From: Nitrospirae bacterium GWC2_57_13
GTDB lineage: Bacteria > Nitrospirota > UBA9217
Direction of reading: 5' to 3'
DNA: 37,396 nt
NCBI GenBank assembly: GCA_001805055.1
Contig: MHDZ01000098.1
Span: 1-37,396, forward strand
The notes beneath the pieces were generated by a model, which saw nothing but the letters and a program-made list of their open reading frames with translations, had not been told where the DNA came from and searched no databases. Position 1 is the first letter of the stretch, and the number at the start of each line of letters is the position of its first letter. Shown here piece by piece: positions 714 to 28,214 of this stretch. Position numbers and translations under genes: made by a program.

Positions 714-1097
714 GGCCAATCAGCCTTGCGCAGCGAGTAAAAACGTCAATCGTCCGTCGGCAACGAGGCCCGTATCGTGGAACGTCTATCGGATGCGTCA
801 AAACACGAATGACGAGAAACATAACCGAAACGGGCATCGTAGCCGTAACCGCTCGACTCCGCCTTTCCCATCTTCCCAACGTCTCATCTTCCCAGCTTCC
901 CGCCTCCCACTCCCCACTCGTCTCTTGTCGCTCGTCGCTCGTCCTCAGGCCGGAGAAATACCTTGACTTTACAGGGTCTTCCTCCTATTATGCCACGTGA
1001 AAATGCTTCTTGACAGGGATCGTAACGTACGGATTTCCAAACAAATTTATCATTTTCTCCCGTCGATCCTGTCCCGCTCTCTCCCCGAGGCAGTACA
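714..1097. other. Intergenic region with pyrimidine-rich repeat and promoter
   Basis: There is no credible gene in these 384 bases. Positions 866-947 are a C/T-rich stretch of imperfect short repeats (CTTCCC and CTCGTCG-type units), of the kind also seen at 21901-21960. Weak open frames cross it on both strands but have no ribosome binding site and no protein-like composition. A sigma-70-type promoter follows at 963-991. Confidence 0.6.
963..991 (+). promoter_or_regulatory. Sigma-70-type promoter for the polyprenyl synthase operon
   Basis: TTGACT (963-968), a 17-base spacer, then TATTAT (986-991). The predicted transcription start is near 998, giving a 5' leader of about 100 bases before the ATG at 1098. 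This is read from sequence only. Confidence 0.65.
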
Positions 1098-3213: not shown

Positions 3214-4260
3214 ATGTCAAGCGTATCTCTTATCCTGGATGACCGCTACCTGGAGCATGATCCCGGCGAGGACCATCCCGAGAGCGCAGACCGCCTGCGC
3301 GTCATCCATGCCCTTGTGGCGAGCGAGTTCGCCGATCTTCCGCGCATCGAACCGCGGCTGGCAACGGAAGATGAGCTTGCCCTGGTCCATGACCCGAACT
3401 ACATCATGACCGTGGCTGCCACGGCAGGCAAGCCCTTTTCCCGCCTCGACATGGATACAGGCCTCTCGGCAAGGTCCTATGAGATCGCCCGCCTCGCTGC
3501 TGGAGGATTGCTGAATGCCGTTGACTCGCTTCTCACTCCGAACTCTGAACCCCGAACTCTCCACTCAATTTTCGCCTTTGTCCGGCCTCCCGGCCACCAC
3601 GCAGAGCCTGCCCGGGGAATGGGCTTCTGTCTCTTCAACAATGTGGCTGTTGCCGCTGCATATGCCAAAGAAAAATGGGGACTCAAGAAGGTCCTGATCG
3701 TGGACTGGGACCTCCACCACGGAAACGGCACGCAGCGGGCCTTTTATTCCGATCCCTCTGTGCTCTTTTTCTCGTCGCACCAGTATCCTCACTACCCCGG
3801 CACAGGAAGCTTCGATGAGGTCGGGAGCGGCGAAGGCGCAGGCTTCACCGTGAACGCTCCCCTCCCCTCGGGCTTTGGCGACGCTGACTATATCGCCCTC
3901 TACGAAGGCGTGCTCAGGCCCATTGCGCTGGAATACCAGCCTGAGCTCATTCTCGTGTCTGCCGGGTTCGATCCCTTCATCAAGGACCCTCTGGGCGGCA
4001 TGCGCGTCACCGGAGCGGGATTCGGGGCTCTTGCCGCCATCGTACTGGACCTTGCCCGCCAGTGCTGCTCCGGCAGGGTCGTCATGACCCTCGAAGGAGG
4101 ATACAACCCCGAAGGACTGCGCGATGGCACCAGGGCCGTTTTGACCGCAATGCGGGATCAGGCCGTGCCTTCTTCCGGCAGACCTGTCTCGCCGGCTGCG
4201 GACCGGATCATAGAGCAGATCAGGTCCCGCCACGGAAAGTACTGGAAAAGCCTCGGCTGA
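3214..4260 (+). CDS. Histone-deacetylase-family (class II-like) deacetylase
   Basis: Zn-dependent amidohydrolase of the arginase/deacetylase fold, 348 residues, covering the whole family domain. Visible catalytic features: PPGHH with the His pair at 128-129, GFCLFNN, DWDLHHGNGTQ with the metal-ligand region at 164-169, SAGFDPF with Asp 251, and LEGGYN with the transition-state Tyr 295. Substrates in bacteria may be acetyl-lysine, acetoin-related compounds or acetylpolyamines; sequence alone does not choose. The start has AGGAGA about 9 bases upstream. The odd part is residues 107-119 (around LTPNSEPRTLHS), just before the FAFVRPPGHH strand, where relatives usually have a short loop. This stretch is encoded by a copy of the CTCACTCCGAACTC repeat, so a repeat appears to have inserted in frame. 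Confidence 0.93.
   Translation: MSSVSLILDDRYLEHDPGEDHPESADRLRVIHALVASEFADLPRIEPRLATEDELALVHDPNYIMTVAATAGKPFSRLDMDTGLSARSYEIARLAAGGLLNAVDSLLTPNSEPRTLHSIFAFVRPPGHHAEPARGMGFCLFNNVAVAAAYAKEKWGLKKVLIVDWDLHHGNGTQRAFYSDPSVLFFSSHQYPHYPGTGSFDEVGSGEGAGFTVNAPLPSGFGDADYIALYEGVLRPIALEYQPELILVSAGFDPFIKDPLGGMRVTGAGFGALAAIVLDLARQCCSGRVVMTLEGGYNPEGLRDGTRAVLTAMRDQAVPSSGRPVSPAADRIIEQIRSRHGKYWKSLG
3532..3570 (+). repeat. CTCACTCCGAACTC repeat inside the deacetylase gene
   Basis: CTCACTCCGAACTC at 3532-3545 is identical to 21901-21914, which is intergenic. It continues with further CGAACTC and CCACTC units to about 3570. The insertion keeps the reading frame. Confidence 0.6.
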
Positions 4261-4334: not shown

Positions 4335-5525
4335 ATGCCGCAGTTCTTATATAAAGCTGTCCGCGAGGACGGCTCATCGTCCACTGGCGAAAGCACTGCC
4401 GCTAACGCTATTGAACTCAGGCGCGATCTCGAAGCGCGCGGTTATCTCGTCCTTGATATCAAACTGAAACGAGAGGGTTTGCAGCGGAGCGGGATCAGCT
4501 CAAAAGACTTCCTCCTCTTCAACCAGGAATTCATGACGCTCATTAAAGCAGGCCTCCCCATCCTGCAGACACTGGAAATCGTTCGCAAACGCTCCGTGAA
4601 TATAACTTTTAAGACTATCATTGATAGCCTTATCCGCGAGATCAAAGGCGGCACGGCCCTCTCCGACGCCATGGCCATGCACCCGGATTTTTTCACCTCC
4701 CTCTATACCGCAACGGTGCGGGCCGGTGAAAAAAGCGGAGCTTTGGCGGAAGTCCTTAGTCGCCATACCGCATACCTGAAACGTACGCTAGCACTGCGGC
4801 GAAAGCTCGTCACAGCGTTGATCTATCCCTCGCTGGTCGTTGTATTTGTTCTTGCCGTGTTAATACTATTCATATTTGTCATTGTGCCCGGCTTCATGCA
4901 AACGCAAAACGATCAAGCTCAATCCCTTCCGGCGATTACCGCCTTTGTTTTTTCATTATCGCAAGGATTACTGCAATATGCGCCCTATTGGTCAACATTC
5001 TTAGTGGCCCTGCTTGTCGGTCTTTATTACTGGGTAAAAAGCGCTGCAGGCAAGACAGTACTTGACAAGCTTAAACTTAAACTTCCCGTCCTTGGCGTTC
5101 TCATCACACAATATCTTATGGCTCAGATGACACGCACGCTTGCGACGGTCCTGCGGGGAGGAGTTCCGCTAGTGCAAGCACTTGACACTACAGCCGATGC
5201 AATAAATAATTCTATCATCACAGCACGATTGCGGAAAGCTCGCACAATGGTCACCGAAGGAGTCAGCCTCGCAGACTCCTTTGATCGCGCACAGGTTGCA
5301 CCTGATATTACGATATCCATGGTGGAGGTCGGCGAATCATCCGGCGATCTTCCGCAAATGCTTGAGAACGTGGCAGATTTTTATGAGGATAGCGCTGACA
5401 GTAAAATCCCCATTCTGACCACTCTCATTGAAGTCGCTATAATTTCCTTTCTGGGTCTTTTGGTCGCATTCATAGTGATTTCGCTCTATCTCCCGATCTT
5501 CGAAATGGGGGCACGAATGGGATGA
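4335..5525 (+). CDS. gspF: Type II secretion / type IV pilus inner-membrane platform protein (GspF/PilC family)
   Basis: Inner-membrane platform protein of 396 residues that couples the assembly ATPase to pseudopilus growth. The N-terminus MPQFLYKAVREDG is the classic family opening, so I start at ATG 4335 rather than the GTG at 4329. Two T2SSF domains are present (about 60-185 and 260-390), with membrane segments near 160-185 (LIYPSLVVVFVLAVLILFIFV), 210-235 and 365-390. SVEVGESSGDLPQML-type motifs (here ISMVEVGESSGDLPQML) are intact. The stop overlaps the gspE start (ATGA, 5522-5525). The gene is visibly richer in A/T than gspE and uses codons such as TTA, ATA and AAT more often, unlike the rest of the operon. 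Translation probably begins on a leaderless mRNA. Confidence 0.93.
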   Translation: MPQFLYKAVREDGSSSTGESTAANAIELRRDLEARGYLVLDIKLKREGLQRSGISSKDFLLFNQEFMTLIKAGLPILQTLEIVRKRSVNITFKTIIDSLIREIKGGTALSDAMAMHPDFFTSLYTATVRAGEKSGALAEVLSRHTAYLKRTLALRRKLVTALIYPSLVVVFVLAVLILFIFVIVPGFMQTQNDQAQSLPAITAFVFSLSQGLLQYAPYWSTFLVALLVGLYYWVKSAAGKTVLDKLKLKLPVLGVLITQYLMAQMTRTLATVLRGGVPLVQALDTTADAINNSIITARLRKARTMVTEGVSLADSFDRAQVAPDITISMVEVGESSGDLPQMLENVADFYEDSADSKIPILTTLIEVAIISFLGLLVAFIVISLYLPIFEMGARMG

Positions 5526-7246
5526 CACTTGCATACCGGAGAAAACGGCTCGGGGACATCCTCGTGGCCAAGGGGGTCGTGACGCAGGAGCAGATCAATG
5601 ACCTTCTGTCCCGCACGGACGGCCGCGGCAAACGGATCGGCGAACTGCTGCTCGACGAAGGCATGCTGACCGAGGAGGCCCTTGCCCGGGCCGTTGCCGA
5701 CCAGCGCGACCTGGCCTATCATGATCTATCGGACTTCATGATCGCGCGGCGCTTCTTCGAGAAGATCCCCGTGGAGCTCATGGAGCGCTATCAGTTCATT
5801 CCTGTCGAGGACTCGGGCGACGCACTCGTTATCGCCATGGCAGACCCCAACAACATCGTGGCCATCGACGAACTGGAAATGATCATCAACCGCCCCCTCG
5901 ATATCCGCGTCAGCGCCCTCTCGGCGATCCGAGCTTCCCTGAAACGAAGCGGTTCATCGGAACGGGTAATGCACACCGTGTCGGAGGATTTCAAGCTCCA
6001 TATCGTGAAGGAGCAGGAAGAGGGCGTGGAAGAAATCCTCTCCCTTGAAAGTATCGACAAGGACGGCAGCCCCATCATCAAGCTGATGCACACCACGATT
6101 TTCGACGCCATCCAGCGGCGCGCCAGCGACATCCACATCGAGACCACGGACCGGAACGTCGTGATCAAGTACCGCATCGACGGCGTGCTCTATAACGCTA
6201 CGGACCCCATTGATGTGAAGTTCCACAGTGCCATTGTCTCGCGCATCAAGGTCATGAGCGAGCTCGACATTGCCGAGCGCCGCGTGCCCCAGGACGGCCG
6301 CTTCAAGCTGCGCACAGGGACCAAGACCATCGATTTCCGCGTTTCCATCATGCCCAGCGCCTTCGGCGAAGATGTGGTGATCCGCATCCTCGACAAGGAA
6401 TCGATCACCCACGGCGTGAACGTCCTGAAACTCGACAGCCTGGGCTTCGATGAAACGGACCTCCGGAAGTTCCGGCGCAATATCCGCGAGCCCTACGGCA
6501 TGGTACTGGTCACGGGCCCCACGGGAAGCGGCAAGACCACTACGCTCTACGCGGCGATCAGCGAGGTAAACAGCGGCGAGGACAAGATCATCACCATTGA
6601 AGACCCCGTGGAGTACCAGCTCCGGGGCGTTGTGCAGATACCGGTGAACGAGAAGAAGGGCCTCACCTTCGCCCGGGGCCTGCGCTCCATCCTGCGGCAC
6701 GACCCGGACAAGATCATGGTGGGCGAGATCCGCGACGCCGAGACAGCGCATATCGCCGTGCAGTCCGCCCTCACGGGCCACCTTGTGTTCACCACCGTCC
6801 ACGCCAACAATGCCTTCGACGTGCTCGGCCGGTTCCTGAACATGGGCATCGAGCCCTACAACTTCGTTTCGTCCCTGAACTGCATCCTGGCCCAGCGGCT
6901 TGTCAGGATCCTCTGCCCCCGCTGCAAGCGGAAAGCAACGCTTACCCGCCAGGAACTGGAAGACTCTGCAATGGACTATGGGAAATACGGCGCCCATGTC
7001 TTTTACGAAGCCACAGGCTGCAACGAGTGCAATGACACGGGATACCGCGGCAGGCACGCCACTACCGAATTTCTTGACCTGTCGGACCGCGTCAGGGAGC
7101 TGATTATCGAGAAACGGCCTTCCTCGGAGATCCGAAAGGCCGCCCTGAGCGAGGGTATGACCACGCTGCGCCAGTCTGCCGTGGCCAAAGTGCTGGCCGG
7201 CGAGACAACGCTGAAGGAGATAAACAGGGTCACGTTTATCGAGTAG
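5522..7246 (+). CDS. gspE: Type II secretion / type IV pilus assembly ATPase (GspE/PilB family)
   Basis: Hexameric cytoplasmic ATPase of 574 residues that powers pseudopilus or pilus extension. Domains in order: an N-terminal MshEN/GspE-N domain (about 1-150; KRLGDILVAKGVVTQEQ), a linker, and the catalytic core. Walker A is GPTGSGKTTT around residue 332. The Asp box, Walker B (IMVGEIRDAET near 398) and the His box (HLVFTTVHAN) are all present. A tetracysteine zinc site follows: CPRC near 464 and CNEC near 500. All catalytic elements are intact. The gene is coupled to gspF by a four-base overlap and followed after 66 bases by the large exported protein. Order F-E rather than the usual E-F. Confidence 0.95.
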   Translation: MTLAYRRKRLGDILVAKGVVTQEQINDLLSRTDGRGKRIGELLLDEGMLTEEALARAVADQRDLAYHDLSDFMIARRFFEKIPVELMERYQFIPVEDSGDALVIAMADPNNIVAIDELEMIINRPLDIRVSALSAIRASLKRSGSSERVMHTVSEDFKLHIVKEQEEGVEEILSLESIDKDGSPIIKLMHTTIFDAIQRRASDIHIETTDRNVVIKYRIDGVLYNATDPIDVKFHSAIVSRIKVMSELDIAERRVPQDGRFKLRTGTKTIDFRVSIMPSAFGEDVVIRILDKESITHGVNVLKLDSLGFDETDLRKFRRNIREPYGMVLVTGPTGSGKTTTLYAAISEVNSGEDKIITIEDPVEYQLRGVVQIPVNEKKGLTFARGLRSILRHDPDKIMVGEIRDAETAHIAVQSALTGHLVFTTVHANNAFDVLGRFLNMGIEPYNFVSSLNCILAQRLVRILCPRCKRKATLTRQELEDSAMDYGKYGAHVFYEATGCNECNDTGYRGRHATTEFLDLSDRVRELIIEKRPSSEIRKAALSEGMTTLRQSAVAKVLAGETTLKEINRVTFIE

Positions 7247-7301: not shown

Positions 7302-7326
7302 CTCTATGCACTATGCGCCATGCCCT
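7302..7326 (+). repeat. ATGC-type heptamer repeat at the start of the CARDB gene
   Basis: CTCTATGCACTATGCGCCATG resembles the degenerate heptamer clusters (CTATGCG, CCATGCT) at 13566-13639, 21951-21990 and 31381-31409. It supplies the start codon region of the following gene. Confidence 0.5.
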
Positions 7327-10300
7327 CTGCCGCTTCATATTCTCGTCCTGCAGCCTCGCTCTCCTTCCCCTGCTCTTCCCTGCCCTGGCGCAGAGCAGCG
7401 GCAGCAACGGCATTGCTTTCTCCGTCGCAGACCTGCCGGGAGGGCCTGCTTCAGGGATCGTCCAGGGGCCTCGACAGCTCCCAGTGCCCGACGCTGCTGC
7501 CGTGGCACGAACAGGCGCCAAAAAAGGCATCCTGGGCTCTTCCCTTGCCGCCGAGGTCAAGGCAAGTCCTGACGCGGCAGTGCTGAATGCCGGACTGGCG
7601 CAGGAATGGCGGCTTCTGCTCGCGGACCTGGGTGAGCCCTCCACCCTCGTCGGCCCTGACGAGCTCGCTGCAGCCGGCAGGACCAAGCCGTTCCTGATCA
7701 TACCCTCAGGCGCCTTGGCAGCCTACGGAGGATCGGCCTTCTTCCGGGCAGGTCTTGCTGAATTCGTTCGCTCCGGCGGAATTATCCTTTGCTTCTCCCA
7801 GCAGAGAGGCATTGATCTTTCTGCACTGCCCCTCGACAAAGGAGCGAAGATCGAGGCAGCAGGCTGGTCCGAAGATGCAGGTCCGCTCTTCCGGGCATCA
7901 GCGATCCAGCAGCAGCATCCCTTTCTGTCGGGCGAGACCACTGCTCTGCCCGGCATTGAAACGGACGGATACTTCACCTCGTACCCTGAGAATGCCGCTG
8001 TCCTGCTCGCCCGCCACGACGGATTTCCCACGCTCATCATATATCCCTTCGGCTCCGGATGGGTTGTTGCATCCACGCTGTTCTCCGAGCGGCTCCATGC
8101 CCTGGGGCATCTTGGCGCCGAGGAACGGTCCCTGCTGCGCGATATGGTTTCCTGGGCGAAAGCAGGCGGCAAGGTCCGAACAAGCGCTGCCAACAGGCGA
8201 GTTGATCTCGAACTCGAACTGATCGGGCTGCGCGACATCGACGCAGCCGCTGTAAAGCTCTTGATGATCGGCCCTGATCGCAGCGTAACAGCAACAGAGA
8301 AGACGTTGCAGCGACCCGTCCCTCGCAGGGCAAAGCTCACCGTGCCTGTCTCCTTCTCTTTTCACAGTGATGCACCGCAGGGAATCCATCATGTGGAATA
8401 CGTTCTGCTCGACAGCAGGGGCAGGTCCCTCACAACAGCGCGGGAAAGCGTGGGTGGATGGGTAAGCCTTGGCAACGCGTCGAAGACGGGAACGATCACC
8501 CGCGCCGCAAAACCTCTTGCCGCGCCGCAGCTCCTGATCAGCGATGCAACGGCCCTGATCACGAGTGTCGGCAGCACTGTCCGGATGGACCTGAACATCA
8601 CCACAGGTCCGGGCGCTGAACTGCCGCAGCCAATTCTGGTGCGTGCGGGAGGCCGGGAACGTATCGTACAGCTCACAAAGGAACGGACGTCAATTTCGCT
8701 TGATCTGCCCACGGGAAGCACGCAAGACTCCATCCCCTTCACCCTGTCCCTCTCCGGAAATGGCAGGGTCCTCTTCCGGGGAAGCGCAGAGCCCCCGAGC
8801 AAAGCAAAGGGAAGCATCTTTCTGGAACGCGCCTCCTTTGCTTCCGGTGAGCCGGTCCGCATCGGGACCAAAGGCCTCGGCAGCGGTGAACTGACGTTCT
8901 ACGGGCTGGGCTCCATCCAGGACAGCATGATCAGCGGCAGCAAAAGTGTGGAATTCACCGCAGCGTCCGACCTTCCTGACGGCGACTATCCGCTCCGCTG
9001 GGAATTCCGCAGCATGGACGACAGCATCCTGAAAGGGATCCTGACACTGCCGCACCAGGGATACCGTGTACGGTTCCAGTCCTTGTCTGTGAAGGAGAAG
9101 AGCTCCTGGTGGCGCAGCCGGATCGAAGCTGGGCTCGGCATAACCGCCACGGCGCCGGTGGCAGGCCGCCTGCGTCTGCAGCTCCGCGGCCCTGCGGGAA
9201 CAGAGGGACCGGCACTGGAGAAGGAAATAAAGCTCATGCCAGGCCTGAACGATCTGACCCTTGCCCTGCCCTTCAAACCCTCCCAGGCCGGCATCTGGGA
9301 GCTGCAAAGCAGCTTCCTCGTGACCCTGCCTGACGGCGCCGGCCTGCTTCACAAGCCCGTCATCATCGCGTCGGCAATAAAGGCCTTTGATGCAGGAAAG
9401 GCCGCCGTTCTCGGCATCAGCACGGAACGGCCCTTGTACGAAGACCCTTCCGGACCGGTCCAGGCGACCGTCAGCATCTTCGGCAGCGGCGCTGCGTTCA
9501 TGACGGTCTCCCTCGATGGAAATAAAATGAAATCAGAGAAGCTGGAGCTTTCCGGCCATAACAGCATAAACATAAAGATCGACACACTGAAGGAGGGAGC
9601 GCACACGCTCAGCGCAGACCTTCGGCTGGCCGGTCTTTCGAGCTACCAAAAGCTGGCGTTCCCTTACGGTACGAACCTTCCTGATCTTGCACTGGAACTC
9701 TCGATCCCTGAACCTGCCGGAGCCTCACTGCCCATTACCCTGCTGGTCCGCAATCAGGGCAGAACATCGTCAGCCTCCTCCCGCGCGGCGCTGCTCGAAG
9801 GCCTGCCTTCAGACCGGGGACAGGTCGTCGGCTCGATCACCGTTCCTGCCCTGAAGTCCGGTGAAACCTACTCAACAGTTCTCGAATGGCCGCTCCTGAA
9901 CAAGGCAGGATCACAGACCCTCCATGCCGTCGCCGATGTTGAGGGAATGGTGACCGAAGCGGACAAGGAGAACAATAGTAATGCAGTCTTCATAAACATA
10001 CCGGAGACCGTATTCTCCCTTGCCCCGCAGAAGAACACCATTTTTTCCGATGAGGAGATGGAGTTCCATGCTGCGATGGTGAATCTCACCTCCCGCAGCC
10101 TCGAAGGCCTGAACGTGCAATTCCAGCTTTTCGGACCACGAGGCGCCCTTATGACCTCGGAGCAAAGCTCTGTCCCCCTGCTCGGACCCGGCGCGGCTCA
10201 ACGCATCACCCGCTCCTTTCGCCTTCCCTCTGCATCCTTCGGCGTTTACCGCGCTGCGGCTGTGCTCACGAAAGACCGCGTGATCGCCGAGGCAGATGCA

Positions 10301-11593
10301 AGCCTGACCCTGCTGCCCACTCCGCTGCTCCAGGGCACGCTCGTGGGCACGCCTGCCGCAACAGGCTCCTGCAGGCCCTTCACGATCACGTACGATGCGC
10401 GAAGTGCCGGTAATGTTCCTGTTACCGAAGGCACGGTACAGGCCCGGATCGCTCCTGCTGCCTCGGGACAACAGTCCATAACGAAAGAAGCGCCCTTCAG
10501 CCAGGGAGCAGGATCGTTCAGGATCGGAAAGCTTGACCTTCCATCTGGTAACTATACGGTACAACTCACGGGAAGCGCAACGAACCGCAACCATAAGGTG
10601 ACAAGGGAAACGGTGATGGCCGAGCAGCCGCTCTCGGTGACAGCGCCTGTCTCCGTGCGCCAGAACAGCTCGCCGGTACCCCGGGTGCTGGTGCTGCGCA
10701 GCGCGCTGGAACAGGGGGCAAAAAAGGTCGTGACCAGAAAGCTGCTCGATGATGCCTTTGATCGGGAGGGCATATTCCATACGGTCGTGGACAAACCAGC
10801 GGATTTCATCGGCCGCGCCGGCTCAGGCCTGTACAATACCTTTGTACTCTTCGAGCCTGACGAGATGCTCGATGAGATCGAGGACCTCAAACAGCGCGTG
10901 CAGGATGGCGATGGATTGATCATCGTCGGGGAAGGAAGGATCAGCATGACCATCGCTGAATCCTTCGGCTTCACATTCGCTCCTGCCCTTCCCGACGATA
11001 CACGCCTGCTCGACGTGGGAGGCGAGCTTCGCTCCGCGCTCACCGGAACGCTGCCTGTCTGCGGACCGCTCCTGCCGCCGGCCCGAAAGGGCGCGCGTTC
11101 CCTGGCGCAGCTCAGCGGCAGCGGGCAGCCGGCCATGCTGATCGGCTCCCACGGGAAGGGAAAGGTCCTGGTCATGCCCTTCTCCCTGACGCGATCTGCC
11201 GCTGAAACAGGCTCCATCCCCCTGTACGGCCTGCTCCTGTGCACGGCACTGCCCTCAGTGCAGCCGGAGCAGGATTCGCCGGGAGGCATCATTGCGCGGG
11301 AGCTCACGGTCACCGCAGCAGAAGGCAGCGCCAGAACAAGGATCATCGACAGGCTGCCTGAAGGGGCCCAGGTCATGCAGAGTGGTGATGCTGTGGTGAA
11401 GAACGGCGCAATAGTCTACGACGTAACAGCAGAGGCAAAGCCGAAGAGGCTCTTGTATCTCTATCGTTTGCCGACAGGCAGCATCGGACCAGTCAGCCGG
11501 GAAGTGCAGTATGAATGCGGCGGGAACTTCATTTCAGAAGGGCCTGTACCCTTGAAAGAGGGGGACTGGCCCGGTTCCTTGAGAGGCAGATAA
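7313..11593 (+). CDS. Large exported CARDB-domain protein in the secretion operon
   Basis: A 1426-residue protein of unknown function. Residues 1-26 are a signal peptide ending ALA before QSSG. Residues 126-286 resemble a class I glutamine-amidotransferase-like (ThuA/BatA-type) fold: FLIIPSG, FVRSGGIILCF, PFGSGWVVASTLFSER. Several beta-rich Ig-like segments follow. Residues 785-900 form a good CARDB domain (LLVRNQGRTSSAS, VPALKSGETYS, EADKENNSNAVF). Residues 1122-1305 are a second amidotransferase-like region (VLVLRSALEQGAKKV, DGDGLIIVGEGR), and the end resembles a DUF11-like strand set. It sits between gspE and the pseudopilin, so it may be the exported cargo or a surface component. The start is uncertain: the only ATG lies in a repeat and has no ribosome binding site. 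The last residues (VPLKEGDWPGSLRGR) come from a palindromic repeat. Confidence 0.8.
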   Translation: MRHALCRFIFSSCSLALLPLLFPALAQSSGSNGIAFSVADLPGGPASGIVQGPRQLPVPDAAAVARTGAKKGILGSSLAAEVKASPDAAVLNAGLAQEWRLLLADLGEPSTLVGPDELAAAGRTKPFLIIPSGALAAYGGSAFFRAGLAEFVRSGGIILCFSQQRGIDLSALPLDKGAKIEAAGWSEDAGPLFRASAIQQQHPFLSGETTALPGIETDGYFTSYPENAAVLLARHDGFPTLIIYPFGSGWVVASTLFSERLHALGHLGAEERSLLRDMVSWAKAGGKVRTSAANRRVDLELELIGLRDIDAAAVKLLMIGPDRSVTATEKTLQRPVPRRAKLTVPVSFSFHSDAPQGIHHVEYVLLDSRGRSLTTARESVGGWVSLGNASKTGTITRAAKPLAAPQLLISDATALITSVGSTVRMDLNITTGPGAELPQPILVRAGGRERIVQLTKERTSISLDLPTGSTQDSIPFTLSLSGNGRVLFRGSAEPPSKAKGSIFLERASFASGEPVRIGTKGLGSGELTFYGLGSIQDSMISGSKSVEFTAASDLPDGDYPLRWEFRSMDDSILKGILTLPHQGYRVRFQSLSVKEKSSWWRSRIEAGLGITATAPVAGRLRLQLRGPAGTEGPALEKEIKLMPGLNDLTLALPFKPSQAGIWELQSSFLVTLPDGAGLLHKPVIIASAIKAFDAGKAAVLGISTERPLYEDPSGPVQATVSIFGSGAAFMTVSLDGNKMKSEKLELSGHNSINIKIDTLKEGAHTLSADLRLAGLSSYQKLAFPYGTNLPDLALELSIPEPAGASLPITLLVRNQGRTSSASSRAALLEGLPSDRGQVVGSITVPALKSGETYSTVLEWPLLNKAGSQTLHAVADVEGMVTEADKENNSNAVFINIPETVFSLAPQKNTIFSDEEMEFHAAMVNLTSRSLEGLNVQFQLFGPRGALMTSEQSSVPLLGPGAAQRITRSFRLPSASFGVYRAAAVLTKDRVIAEADASLTLLPTPLLQGTLVGTPAATGSCRPFTITYDARSAGNVPVTEGTVQARIAPAASGQQSITKEAPFSQGAGSFRIGKLDLPSGNYTVQLTGSATNRNHKVTRETVMAEQPLSVTAPVSVRQNSSPVPRVLVLRSALEQGAKKVVTRKLLDDAFDREGIFHTVVDKPADFIGRAGSGLYNTFVLFEPDEMLDEIEDLKQRVQDGDGLIIVGEGRISMTIAESFGFTFAPALPDDTRLLDVGGELRSALTGTLPVCGPLLPPARKGARSLAQLSGSGQPAMLIGSHGKGKVLVMPFSLTRSAAETGSIPLYGLLLCTALPSVQPEQDSPGGIIARELTVTAAEGSARTRIIDRLPEGAQVMQSGDAVVKNGAIVYDVTAEAKPKRLLYLYRLPTGSIGPVSREVQYECGGNFISEGPVPLKEGDWPGSLRGR

Positions 11594-11700
11594 AGAAAAT
11601 GAGGCCCTACTCTTTAAATCGCGGAGAAAACAGGGACAGTCCCCTTAACAGAGGGGAAAACAGGGACAGTCCCCTTGAAAGAGGGGGACTGTCCCTGTTC
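11549..11700 (+). repeat. GGGGACTGTCCC palindromic repeat cluster in coding sequence
   Basis: CCCTTGAAAGAGGGGGACTG occurs exactly at 11549-11568 and 11672-11691. The core unit AACAGGGACAGTCCCC is present at 11629-11644 and 11659-11674, with its inverse GGGGACTGTCCCTGTT at 11684-11699, so the cluster can form a hairpin. Related copies lie at 26826-26896 and 28172-28214. Units cover the last codons of the CARDB gene and the leader of the pseudopilin gene. Confidence 0.8.
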
Positions 11701-12204
11701 ACAGCTGACGGCTTCACCTACATTGCCCTGCTTGCCGCCATCGTGATCCTCGGCATCATGCTCGGCGCTGCAGGCAAGTACTGGAGCCATGTGATGCTGC
11801 GGGAGAAGGAAGCAGAGCTTCTGTTCCGGGGGGACCAGTACGTGCGCGCCATTGACAGCTATTACCGGACGATCAAACCGGGGATGCAGCCCATGCTGCC
11901 GCCGACCATTGATGAACTGCTGAAAGACAGCCGCTCCACGGTGAAACGGCATCTGCGGAAGAAGTATAAGGACCCCATCACGGGCGAAGATTTTGCGGTG
12001 ATCCAGGACCCTGTTACCAAGCGTATGATCGGCGTGAAAAGTACAAGCGACAAGGAGCCGCTTAAGAAGGGGAATTTCCCGAAAGGATATGAGACGTTCC
12101 AGGGAAAAACGAAGTACAGCGAGTGGGAGTTTAAGTTCACGCCGCAGGCGCCCGTGCCGGTTCCAACGACACCACCCGTAACACCGCCGCATGGTGGCGG
12201 ATAA
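11599..12204 (+). CDS. gspG: Type II secretion pseudopilin-like protein (GspG-like)
   Basis: A pilin-like protein of 201 residues. The prepilin signal is GFTYIALLAAIVILGIM, with cleavage expected after Gly 38, followed by a hydrophobic helix and a globular domain with YRGDQYVRAIDSYYR-like text (here LFRGDQYVRAIDSYYRTIKPG). The end is rich in Pro and Thr (PVPVPTTPPVTPP). The usual Glu at position +5 of mature pseudopilins is replaced by Ala (FTYIA), which is atypical for a major pseudopilin. I chose ATG 11599, six bases after the CARDB stop; an ATG at 11515 in the same frame overlaps that gene. The 38-residue leader is long, and most of it (ENRDSPLNRGENRDSPLERGG) is encoded by the GGGGACTGTCCC repeat. 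Function is inferred from the gspF/gspE context. Confidence 0.8.
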   Translation: MRPYSLNRGENRDSPLNRGENRDSPLERGGLSLFTADGFTYIALLAAIVILGIMLGAAGKYWSHVMLREKEAELLFRGDQYVRAIDSYYRTIKPGMQPMLPPTIDELLKDSRSTVKRHLRKKYKDPITGEDFAVIQDPVTKRMIGVKSTSDKEPLKKGNFPKGYETFQGKTKYSEWEFKFTPQAPVPVPTTPPVTPPHGGG

Positions 12205-13565: not shown

Positions 13566-13639
13566 CTCCTCAATGCGCATAGAGCATAGGGCAGAGTGCA
13601 GAGCGTCAACCCATGCTCCATGCTCCATGCTCCATGCGT
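13566..13639 (-). repeat. Heptamer tandem repeat between pncA-like and pncB
   Basis: On the plus strand CATGCTC is repeated three times exactly (13612-13632) and then varies (CATGCGT, 13633-13639), with degenerate GCATAGA/GCAGAGT units to the left. The last unit abuts the stop codon of the pncA-like gene. Confidence 0.75.
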
Positions 13640-21634: not shown

Positions 21635-21999
21635 TCCATTCTCCTTTCAGGGTAGTGTCAAACTATAACGAGGCAATGCCTCAGACCGATGAAACATAAA
21701 ATCTACAATAAAACCAACTGCCGCCACAAAGGCTCTAAGATGCTAAGAAAGTCATAAAGTTCATACGTCAAGCAGACCGCCATGCTCTTTTGTATTTCTT
21801 CGTGCCTTCCCCGACCCGTGTCCTATTTTATATGAGACAGGGGCGGGGCGCGCCGACCTGGCATATTTGGCTTCAGTTTGTCAGGGTCTGGTCCTATGCT
21901 CTCACTCCGAACTCCGCACTCATAACTCAGAACTTGTCACTCGTCCCTCTGCTCTCTGCCCTATGCTCTTTGCGCCATGCGCTATGCTGCTTTCGTCCC
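21635..21999. other. Intergenic region with repeat clusters
   Basis: These 365 bases hold no supported gene. They contain the GAGGCA/TGCCTC palindrome near the FKBP start, a partial ACAAAGG-type repeat (21728-21750), the CTCACTCCGAACTC repeat (21901-21945, identical over 14 bases to sequence inside the deacetylase gene) and an ATGC heptamer cluster (21951-21990). A short open frame across them encodes only repeat-derived sequence. Confidence 0.6.
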
Positions 22000-26825: not shown

Positions 26826-26896
26826 AACAGGGACCGTCCCCCTGGAATCAAAGGGGAAAGGGACAGTCCCCCTAGAATCAAAGGGGACTGTCCCTA
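26826..26896. repeat. GGGGACTGTCCC palindromic repeat cluster
   Basis: Two direct units (AACAGGGACCGTCCCCC and AAAGGGACAGTCCCCC, each followed by an AATCAAAGGGG tail) and a final inverted GGGGACTGTCCCT. Arms 26859-26871 and 26883-26895 are complementary. Same family as 11549-11700 and 28172-28214. Confidence 0.8.
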
Positions 26897-28171: not shown

Positions 28172-28214
28172 AAAAGGGACAGTCCCCTCGAAACCAAAGG
28201 GGACTGTCCCTTTT
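28172..28214 (-). terminator. GGGGACTGTCCC repeat acting as likely terminator after glcD
   Basis: AAAAGGGACAGTCCCC (28172-28187) and GGGGACTGTCCCTTTT (28199-28214) are perfectly complementary over 16 bases. On the minus strand the second arm of the hairpin ends in TTTT. One arm overlaps the glcD stop codon. It is the simplest copy of the repeat family seen at 11549 and 26826. Confidence 0.6.

Follow-up and report, generated by a model that had tools for sequence, protein, structure and literature searches.

How a dispersed palindromic repeat could come to form both the end of one gene and the beginning of the next, apparently in frame in both, is the question raised by a gene junction in Nitrospirae bacterium GWC2_57_13 (the source genome, G000). 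The window, i.e. the whole stretch of DNA analysed, comprises 37,396 nucleotides of contig MHDZ01000098.1, and the genes of the ATPase/CARDB/pseudopilin cluster and the palindromic repeat copies described in it lie on the forward strand. The junction joins a CARDB protein gene (7313-11593; open reading frame of 1426 residues, PF07705 E 1.2e-12) to a pseudopilin gene (11599-12204; ATG at 11599, 201 residues). Upstream of this pair, in the same cluster, is a gene for a T2SSE-type secretion/pilus ATPase with an MshEN domain (5522-7246; PF00437 E 3.7e-133 and PF05157 E 1.9e-16), and 5' of the ATPase gene a histone-deacetylase-like protein is encoded (3214-4260, PF00850 E 8.5e-94).

The repeat at the gene junction

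The window pseudopilin has no Pfam match at E 0.01, and the PF07963 HMM gives only E 0.17. It nevertheless has a leader of the type IV prepilin/pseudopilin kind: 38 codons (11599-11712) with a predicted cut between G38 and F39, where the sequence G^FTYIALLAAIVILGIMLG aligns in 13 sequences as a leader ending in G, followed by F and a hydrophobic helix. An earlier sequence-only reading of this DNA had called the gene gspG. The name does not fit, as the true GspG of the source genome was located on contig C105, and the window protein is a divergent pseudopilin, not GspG.

A complete palindromic element with perfect 16-bp arms (11659-11674 and 11684-11699) and a 9-nt loop occupies positions 11659-11699 of the leader. 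It overlaps the second copy (11653-11682) of a 30-nt direct repeat, the first copy of which (11623-11652, 90 % identity) consists of half an element and an A-rich flank. In total the repeat makes up 71 of the 114 nt of the leader (11629-11699), in agreement with the earlier statement that it supplies more than half of the 38 residues. The exact 20-base duplication (11549-11568 and 11672-11691) noticed in the same reading is present as well, inside two 39-nt stretches (11539-11577 and 11662-11700) that are 87 % identical. The reading had further derived the last codons of the CARDB protein from a repeat unit. There is indeed a repeat in frame at that place, but it is a degenerate copy of the whole element (11539-11577), not just a unit, that closes the CARDB reading frame. 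The window CARDB protein has 16 residues after the motif SEG, compared to 3 at the corresponding place in relatives. As had been suggested, the local pair likely arose by local duplication rather than by two separate arrivals, because the loop TTGAAAGAG is found only in the two local copies, and none of the remaining 37 full hairpins that were read has it.

When one mismatch at most was allowed, the arm sequence GGGGACTGTCCC had 9 matches in the window compared to 0.23 expected, and 9 was reached in none of 100 shuffles. Four of these arms are at the CARDB/pseudopilin junction and five at 26.8 and 28.2 kb, where a second cluster of the family (26829-26895) and a third copy with A-rich and T-rich flanks (28172-28214) are both intergenic. 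A search of positions 11400-11900 against Rfam gave six matches up to E 1, all far under the gathering scores. Tandem heptamer arrays, a different kind of repeat, were also seen in non-coding DNA of the window (892-943, 13577-13637 and 21904-21987).

The palindrome family and its possible mobilisation

The whole source genome (3.32 Mb in 105 contigs) contains 141 exact copies of GGGGACTGTCCC, 68 forward and 73 reverse, while the control, the same 12-mer read backwards, has 0 and 0 copies. The family is lineage-specific: it was absent from 13/13 genomes of the same family searched, and 14/47 further genomes of the phylum had one or two copies. We examined 57 clusters, from the window and the surroundings of 100 listed of the 141 places, and a simple codon-score gene finder called 55 of them non-coding and 2 inside genes. 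The window junction was miscalled non-coding, the start having been placed beyond the repeat; after adjustment 54/57 clusters are outside genes and 3/57 inside, so that the count proposed in the sequence-only reading shows a mostly intergenic repeat. The two in-frame inserts besides the window are in a kinase/nucleotidyltransferase fusion (L077) and in a tRNA nucleotidyltransferase (L092), both named from Pfam. The genes on the two sides of the clusters are co-directional in 39 cases, divergent in 8 and convergent in 5, with 5 clusters at edges. A general role as intrinsic terminator, to which the A and T flanks of the 28172 copy might point, was rejected, as convergent gene ends show no enrichment of the 57 clusters.

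In 32 of the 38 full hairpins read the loop is 11 nt long and typically resembles CTGGAACCAAA or its complement. The trinucleotide preceding the counted stem is ACA in 18 hairpins and AAA in 10. The family is a high-copy, short and mostly intergenic palindrome, as REPs are, without the unpaired GTAG or CGTC tag that REPs carry at one end: inspection by eye of the 38 full hairpins with 10-nt flanks revealed no consistent tag of this kind. The sequence features taken together indicate that a REP-like hairpin, mostly intergenic elsewhere, came to lie on the CARDB/pseudopilin junction and lengthened the CARDB protein, apparently in frame on both sides.

Similar repeats of some genomes had been associated with REP-associated Y1 transposases (RAYT) in the earlier reading, and four Y1_Tnp matches do exist in the source genome. 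It is doubtful that one of these RAYT/TIRYT-type enzymes mobilises the GGGGACTGTCCC family. No GGGGACTGTCCC was found at any of the four loci within 1.5 kb or to the contig end, which some of the fetched surroundings reach, and of the four genes one has a broken frame and another is cut by a contig end. At L031 the Y1_Tnp gene sits between inverted GGGGACAGGCTAC ends. These begin with GGGGACAG, which is similar to GGGGACTG and compatible with GGGGWSAS, the motif fitted by the ends of TIRYT transposases as described in part of PMC3733652. However, the L031 ends differ from GGGGACTGTCCC, and the GGGGACTGTCCC-family arm, which reads GGGGACTG, does not fit GGGGWSAS. The exact end motif GGGGACAGGCTAC has only two copies in the genome, and GGGGACAGGCNNC only 9. 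A transposase located elsewhere, or since lost, could have spread GGGGACTGTCCC. Mobilisation by a Y1 enzyme is a question of how the repeat spreads, and is therefore compatible with an explanation of the leader by tolerance.

Two of the Y1 loci are of interest in themselves. The gene at L031 1170-1920 (G000:C61) is intact, and its inverted GGGGACAGGCTACTTTT ends of the GGGGWSAS type are nearly single-copy. At L033 1465-2263 (G000:C99) the transposase is split across two frames and the gene is flanked by inverted GGGTCAAGTCTTTC-like ends.

Leaders of orthologues and of GspH, GspI and GspJ

The window pseudopilin is present in 26 of the 61 genomes searched, its own included, and the orthologous proteins align well downstream of the cleavage site. 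Thirteen genomes of the same family have an orthologue, and 11 of these were read to the leader; one locus (L037, G004) was unmatched by the motif and one (L047, G011) was incomplete. The comparison of orthologues proposed in the sequence-only reading showed that relatives carry both genes without the GGGGACTGTCCC repeat, which is an insertion relative to them. In G001, G002, G005, G008 and G009 the CARDB protein ends in SQ(G/R)K(V/I/M)E, and the overlap of the CARDB stop codon with the pseudopilin start reads ATGA; this junction has been replaced by the repeat in the source genome. The situation which that reading had named as speaking against it, the same leader in orthologues whose genomes have no such repeat family, was not encountered, and the orthologue leaders differ in sequence.

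In the relatives the leader ends in G before F, the G usually being preceded by K or R, and upstream of it other repeats are common. Tandemly arranged 7-bp units, CCGCACT and ATTTGCA among them, were present in 6/11 orthologue leaders and in 0/11 stretches of equal length after the cleavage site, when a period-7 score of at least 12 was taken as an array. Among the 11, two leaders have no repeat (G006 and G008) and two only a weak one (G007 and G012). In G015, which belongs to another family, the orthologue leader holds the palindrome CCCTCTCCCTTGATGGGAGAGGG. The repeats are themselves dispersed: CCGCAYTCCGCA has 101 copies in G002, 102 in G001 and 75 in G005 (controls 2, 4 and 4), ATTTRCAATTTRCA has 19 in G009 (control 0), and CCCTCTCCCN5GGGAGAGGG occurs at 123 places in G015 (control 0). 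The orthologue leaders of G001, G002, G005 and G010 may share one array. A single shared ancestral array behind all leaders was rejected, since there are several units and these differ between genomes. The orthologous leader of Deltaproteobacterium RIFCSPHIGHO2_02_FULL_43_33 (L228), MIYDLRFTIYDF..., looks heptamer-coded, and judging by it the pattern may extend beyond Nitrospirota.

A survey of prepilins with PF07963 in 7 genomes (85 prepilins read) revealed the same kind of leader in type II secretion operons, where the GspG leader is short and the leaders of GspH, GspI and GspJ are mostly long and repeat-built. In GspJ of G009, for example, the start codon lies within the end of GspI and is followed by four GGATTGC-type units, a loop, the inverted array and KG^FTLLEV. 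The set was widened to the best 30 GspG loci of the 178 genomes with a match, among 245 genomes of the phylum. These loci came from 12 genomes of the family and 18 of other families, two of which (L261 and L275) had no readable downstream leader. Start codons were predicted from the overlap with the upstream gene and the ribosome-binding site. In the 12 family genomes 19/33 GspH/I/J leaders contain arrays (median leader length 31 residues), compared to 0/40 (median 10 residues) in the 16 genomes of other families (Fisher p 5e-9, the relatives not being independent of each other). GspG has a leader of 6 residues in 11 of the 12 family genomes and of 9 in G004. None of 177 own control gene starts had an array. 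The leader counts include non-independent events, as the GspI leaders of G005 and G009 clearly share an array.

Whether the leaders are filled follows the load of CCGCANTCCGCA in the genome. With at least 42 hits (seven family genomes) 15/19 leaders were filled, with 8-32 hits (five family genomes) 4/14, and with 0-5 hits, in other families, 0/40; inside the family the relation has p 0.006. In an own sample of 186 kb all 16 arrays were in non-coding DNA and none in the 152 kb of coding DNA. The 33 leaders of the 12 genomes contain 6.2 arrays per kb, compared to 0.47 per kb in the own-sample non-coding DNA. In the source genome, long perfect CTCTCTG(C) heptamer arrays were observed in intergenic DNA at L077 2925-3039 and L098 3603-3662 (scores 87 and 50.5), and it is likely that these change length fast. 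In GspH of G015 (L166 / L270) the frame 5' of the cleavage site crosses another inverted repeat, CVIPCLTRNP...SCFRRNDK, and translation may really begin only at the later MKQPSSG.

The reading properties of heptamers are relevant here. Since 7 and 3 have no common factor, the three frames of a stop-free 7-bp array all give an identical seven-residue cycle, and arrays of GGATTGC, TGCGGAG, TGCGGAA and ATTTGCA are open in six of six frames. The share of all 7-mers that are open in six frames is 0.50, and as about half of them are open, the openness of heptamers is permissive, not special.

In-frame repeats are also found inside enzymes. From VGGSVRD to DIDLV the tRNA nucleotidyltransferase of L092 has 29 residues in the source genome compared to 21 in 8/8 relatives read (12 loci of other genomes were scanned, 4 of them without a motif match, and a PDB alignment was used too), and it thus contains an in-frame palindromic insert absent from orthologues, as in genes with Rickettsia palindromic elements (RPE). 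In G002, 49 heptamer-array clusters were examined in 40 stretches; 37 were non-coding and 12 scored coding, of which one (L313) is really 5' of its gene and another (L315) forms a C-terminus. The remaining ones are in frame within open reading frames, which include those of HisF, ThiL, two sensor kinases and apparent cobalamin genes; the names were read off the sequence, and those of HisF and ThiL were confirmed by PDB matches. Residues 124-160 of HisF are unmatched in the best solved relative, whose alignment covers either side of them with a 3-residue gap, and the PDB match indicates a smaller insert in ThiL. The enzyme loops of the tRNA nucleotidyltransferase and HisF thus seem to show a tolerance similar to that of the leaders, and in L077 and L092 the GGGGACTGTCCC family appears to behave like the heptamer arrays. 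A frame in G002 that looks CbiD-like from its sequence (L291 1180-1560) has three apparent heptamer-type inserts, MRNSECGMRNA, VQSSKFK and VQSSEFGVQSAV.

Probable tolerance of repeats in cleaved leaders

We consider it probable that most of the pattern is explained by open repeats being passively tolerated in a leader that is cleaved off. A mostly intergenic REP-like hairpin would have entered the CARDB/pseudopilin junction, and a local duplication would have followed. The hairpin would persist since the prepilin leader is a segment with almost no sequence demands, presumably needing only a conserved start codon, an open frame, a small residue before F and removal by the prepilin peptidase. 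Where starts and stops overlap, as in tight pseudopilin operons, the leader would be left as the sole slack DNA and stand in for the intergenic spacer. It would fill with any dispersed repeat at hand, such as the palindrome in the source genome and 7-bp arrays or other palindromes in its relatives. The idea that a cleaved leader makes an insertion tolerable was already part of the sequence-only reading, and it gains support from the repeat-filled leaders of relatives and of GspH, GspI and GspJ. In the family leaders the start codon and the cleavage site are constant while the filling between them varies, and mainly for this reason we regard the repeats as probably translated; the leaders are likewise presumed to be cleaved and the filling to be neutral. 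The density of the leader arrays is higher than tolerance needs, and this excess over non-coding DNA hints at their retention.

Translation of the repeats would be questioned if the pseudopilins started downstream, the repeats being intergenic elements open by chance. With the codon-score gene finder the start of the window pseudopilin falls at 11743, beyond both the repeat and the cleavage site, and many of the N-terminal REPs known elsewhere have been judged non-coding, according to part of PMC3733652. A start at 11743 would, however, delete the cleavage site, and most GspH/I/J leaders have no ATG or GTG between the repeat and the cleavage site. In addition, a start that overlaps the stop of the preceding gene is conserved throughout the family as well as in f3; GspJ starts and GspI stops overlap by 8 nt in 9/10 family genomes read and in 4/4 f3 genomes. 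A downstream start thus appears very improbable. A role of the repeats in the mRNA deserves somewhat more consideration, though we regard it as unlikely. The repeats would here be kept as RNA hairpins behind the GspH/I/J starts, lowering translation or setting decay. The leader of the window pseudopilin folds with z -5.2 compared to dinucleotide shuffles, and for GspH/I/J, where 31 of 33 segments were long enough, z was below -2 in 16/31 leader segments and in 4/31 mature segments of equal length. The stem often begins right behind the start codon and ends right ahead of the cleavage codon, GspG has no hairpin leader, and in the source genome other palindromes fill the GspH and GspJ leaders (z -6.6 and -3.3). 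The greater density of arrays in leaders than in non-coding DNA would also agree with such a role. On the other hand, z stays above this limit in 15/31 segments, the three long leaders of G006 have no hairpin, G011 and G013 have mostly short leaders, and other families manage without; inverted arrays, moreover, fold by construction. Among the orthologues of the window pseudopilin (FTYI) only 3/11 leaders were below -2, compared to 1/11 mature segments. Leader hairpins are thus common but not required, and with 15/31 GspH/I/J segments and 8/11 orthologue leaders failing, the hairpin was rejected as a universal requirement.

Passive tolerance with possible local use is accordingly the reading we favour as probable, a general RNA role being held to have little likelihood. 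Were the hairpins to matter, minor pseudopilins might be made sparsely relative to GspG, and the sequence might turn over while the hairpin remains; we give this little credence. Similarly speculative is the thought that this Nitrospirota family has recruited dispersed inverted heptamer arrays, placed between start codon and cleavage site, as self-erasing tuners of minor pseudopilin expression. If that were true, an mRNA hairpin would set the amount of minor pseudopilin relative to GspG, the array would be readable in any frame, the cut leader would leave no trace, and repeat families could be swapped with the mature pilus unchanged.

Tolerance of dispersed repeats in proteins has precedents. 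Rickettsia palindromic elements and intragenic REPs are dispersed palindromes translated as part of the reading frame of unrelated genes, where they are tolerated, and are otherwise mostly intergenic, as described in parts of PMC3733652 and PMC2229807. Compared to these accounts, the preferred coding target here is one class of functional segment, the prepilin leader; the likeness of the GGGGACTGTCCC family to RPE is one of behaviour alone. The Yersinia YPAL/RU-2 MITE forms part of the signal peptide of YPO1552 (part of PMC2229807) and is, like the leader repeats, in an N-terminal export segment. That case, as described there, concerns a single gene, while here differing repeats are found in many genes, both orthologous and paralogous, of 12 genomes. 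The TAACTGA repeats of Beggiatoaceae (PMC4679880) and the four-fold heptanucleotide elements of Geobacter metallireducens (PMC2700814) are, in the parts of these papers that describe them, many mostly intergenic 7-bp tandem copies, as here, with some of the copies inside genes. The TAACTGA arrays contain stops and precede start codons according to the same part of PMC4679880, whereas the Nitrospirota leader arrays follow the start codon, contain no stop in the direction of reading and often come as inverted pairs. Long prepilin leaders of varied length, cleaved after Gly or Ala as here, occur in T4bP and in Streptococcus sanguinis (part of PMC10191384), and in that part of the account leader length is not tied to dispersed repeats. 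In the open-licence literature searched we recognised no paper on dispersed repeats in prepilin leaders. In-frame palindromes, the MITE-built signal peptide of Yersinia and heptanucleotide elements are thus already in print, and a class of cleaved leaders built from dispersed repeats appears to be new.

Gene finders easily trim such leaders, as the codon-score finder did here, and annotations should be read with this in mind. A whole class of cleaved leaders, repeatedly made from unrelated repeats in paralogues and throughout a family, amounts to a natural experiment: in aligned sets the leader is scrambled, and the start, the cleavage site and the mature protein are constant. It would show that a prepilin leader needs to encode very little, and that non-coding repeats can turn into protein harmlessly. 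In this little-known family of Nitrospirota, repeats that normally lie between genes have repeatedly reached the leaders of pilin-like proteins, the window junction being one example, and are probably read there as protein and then cut off.
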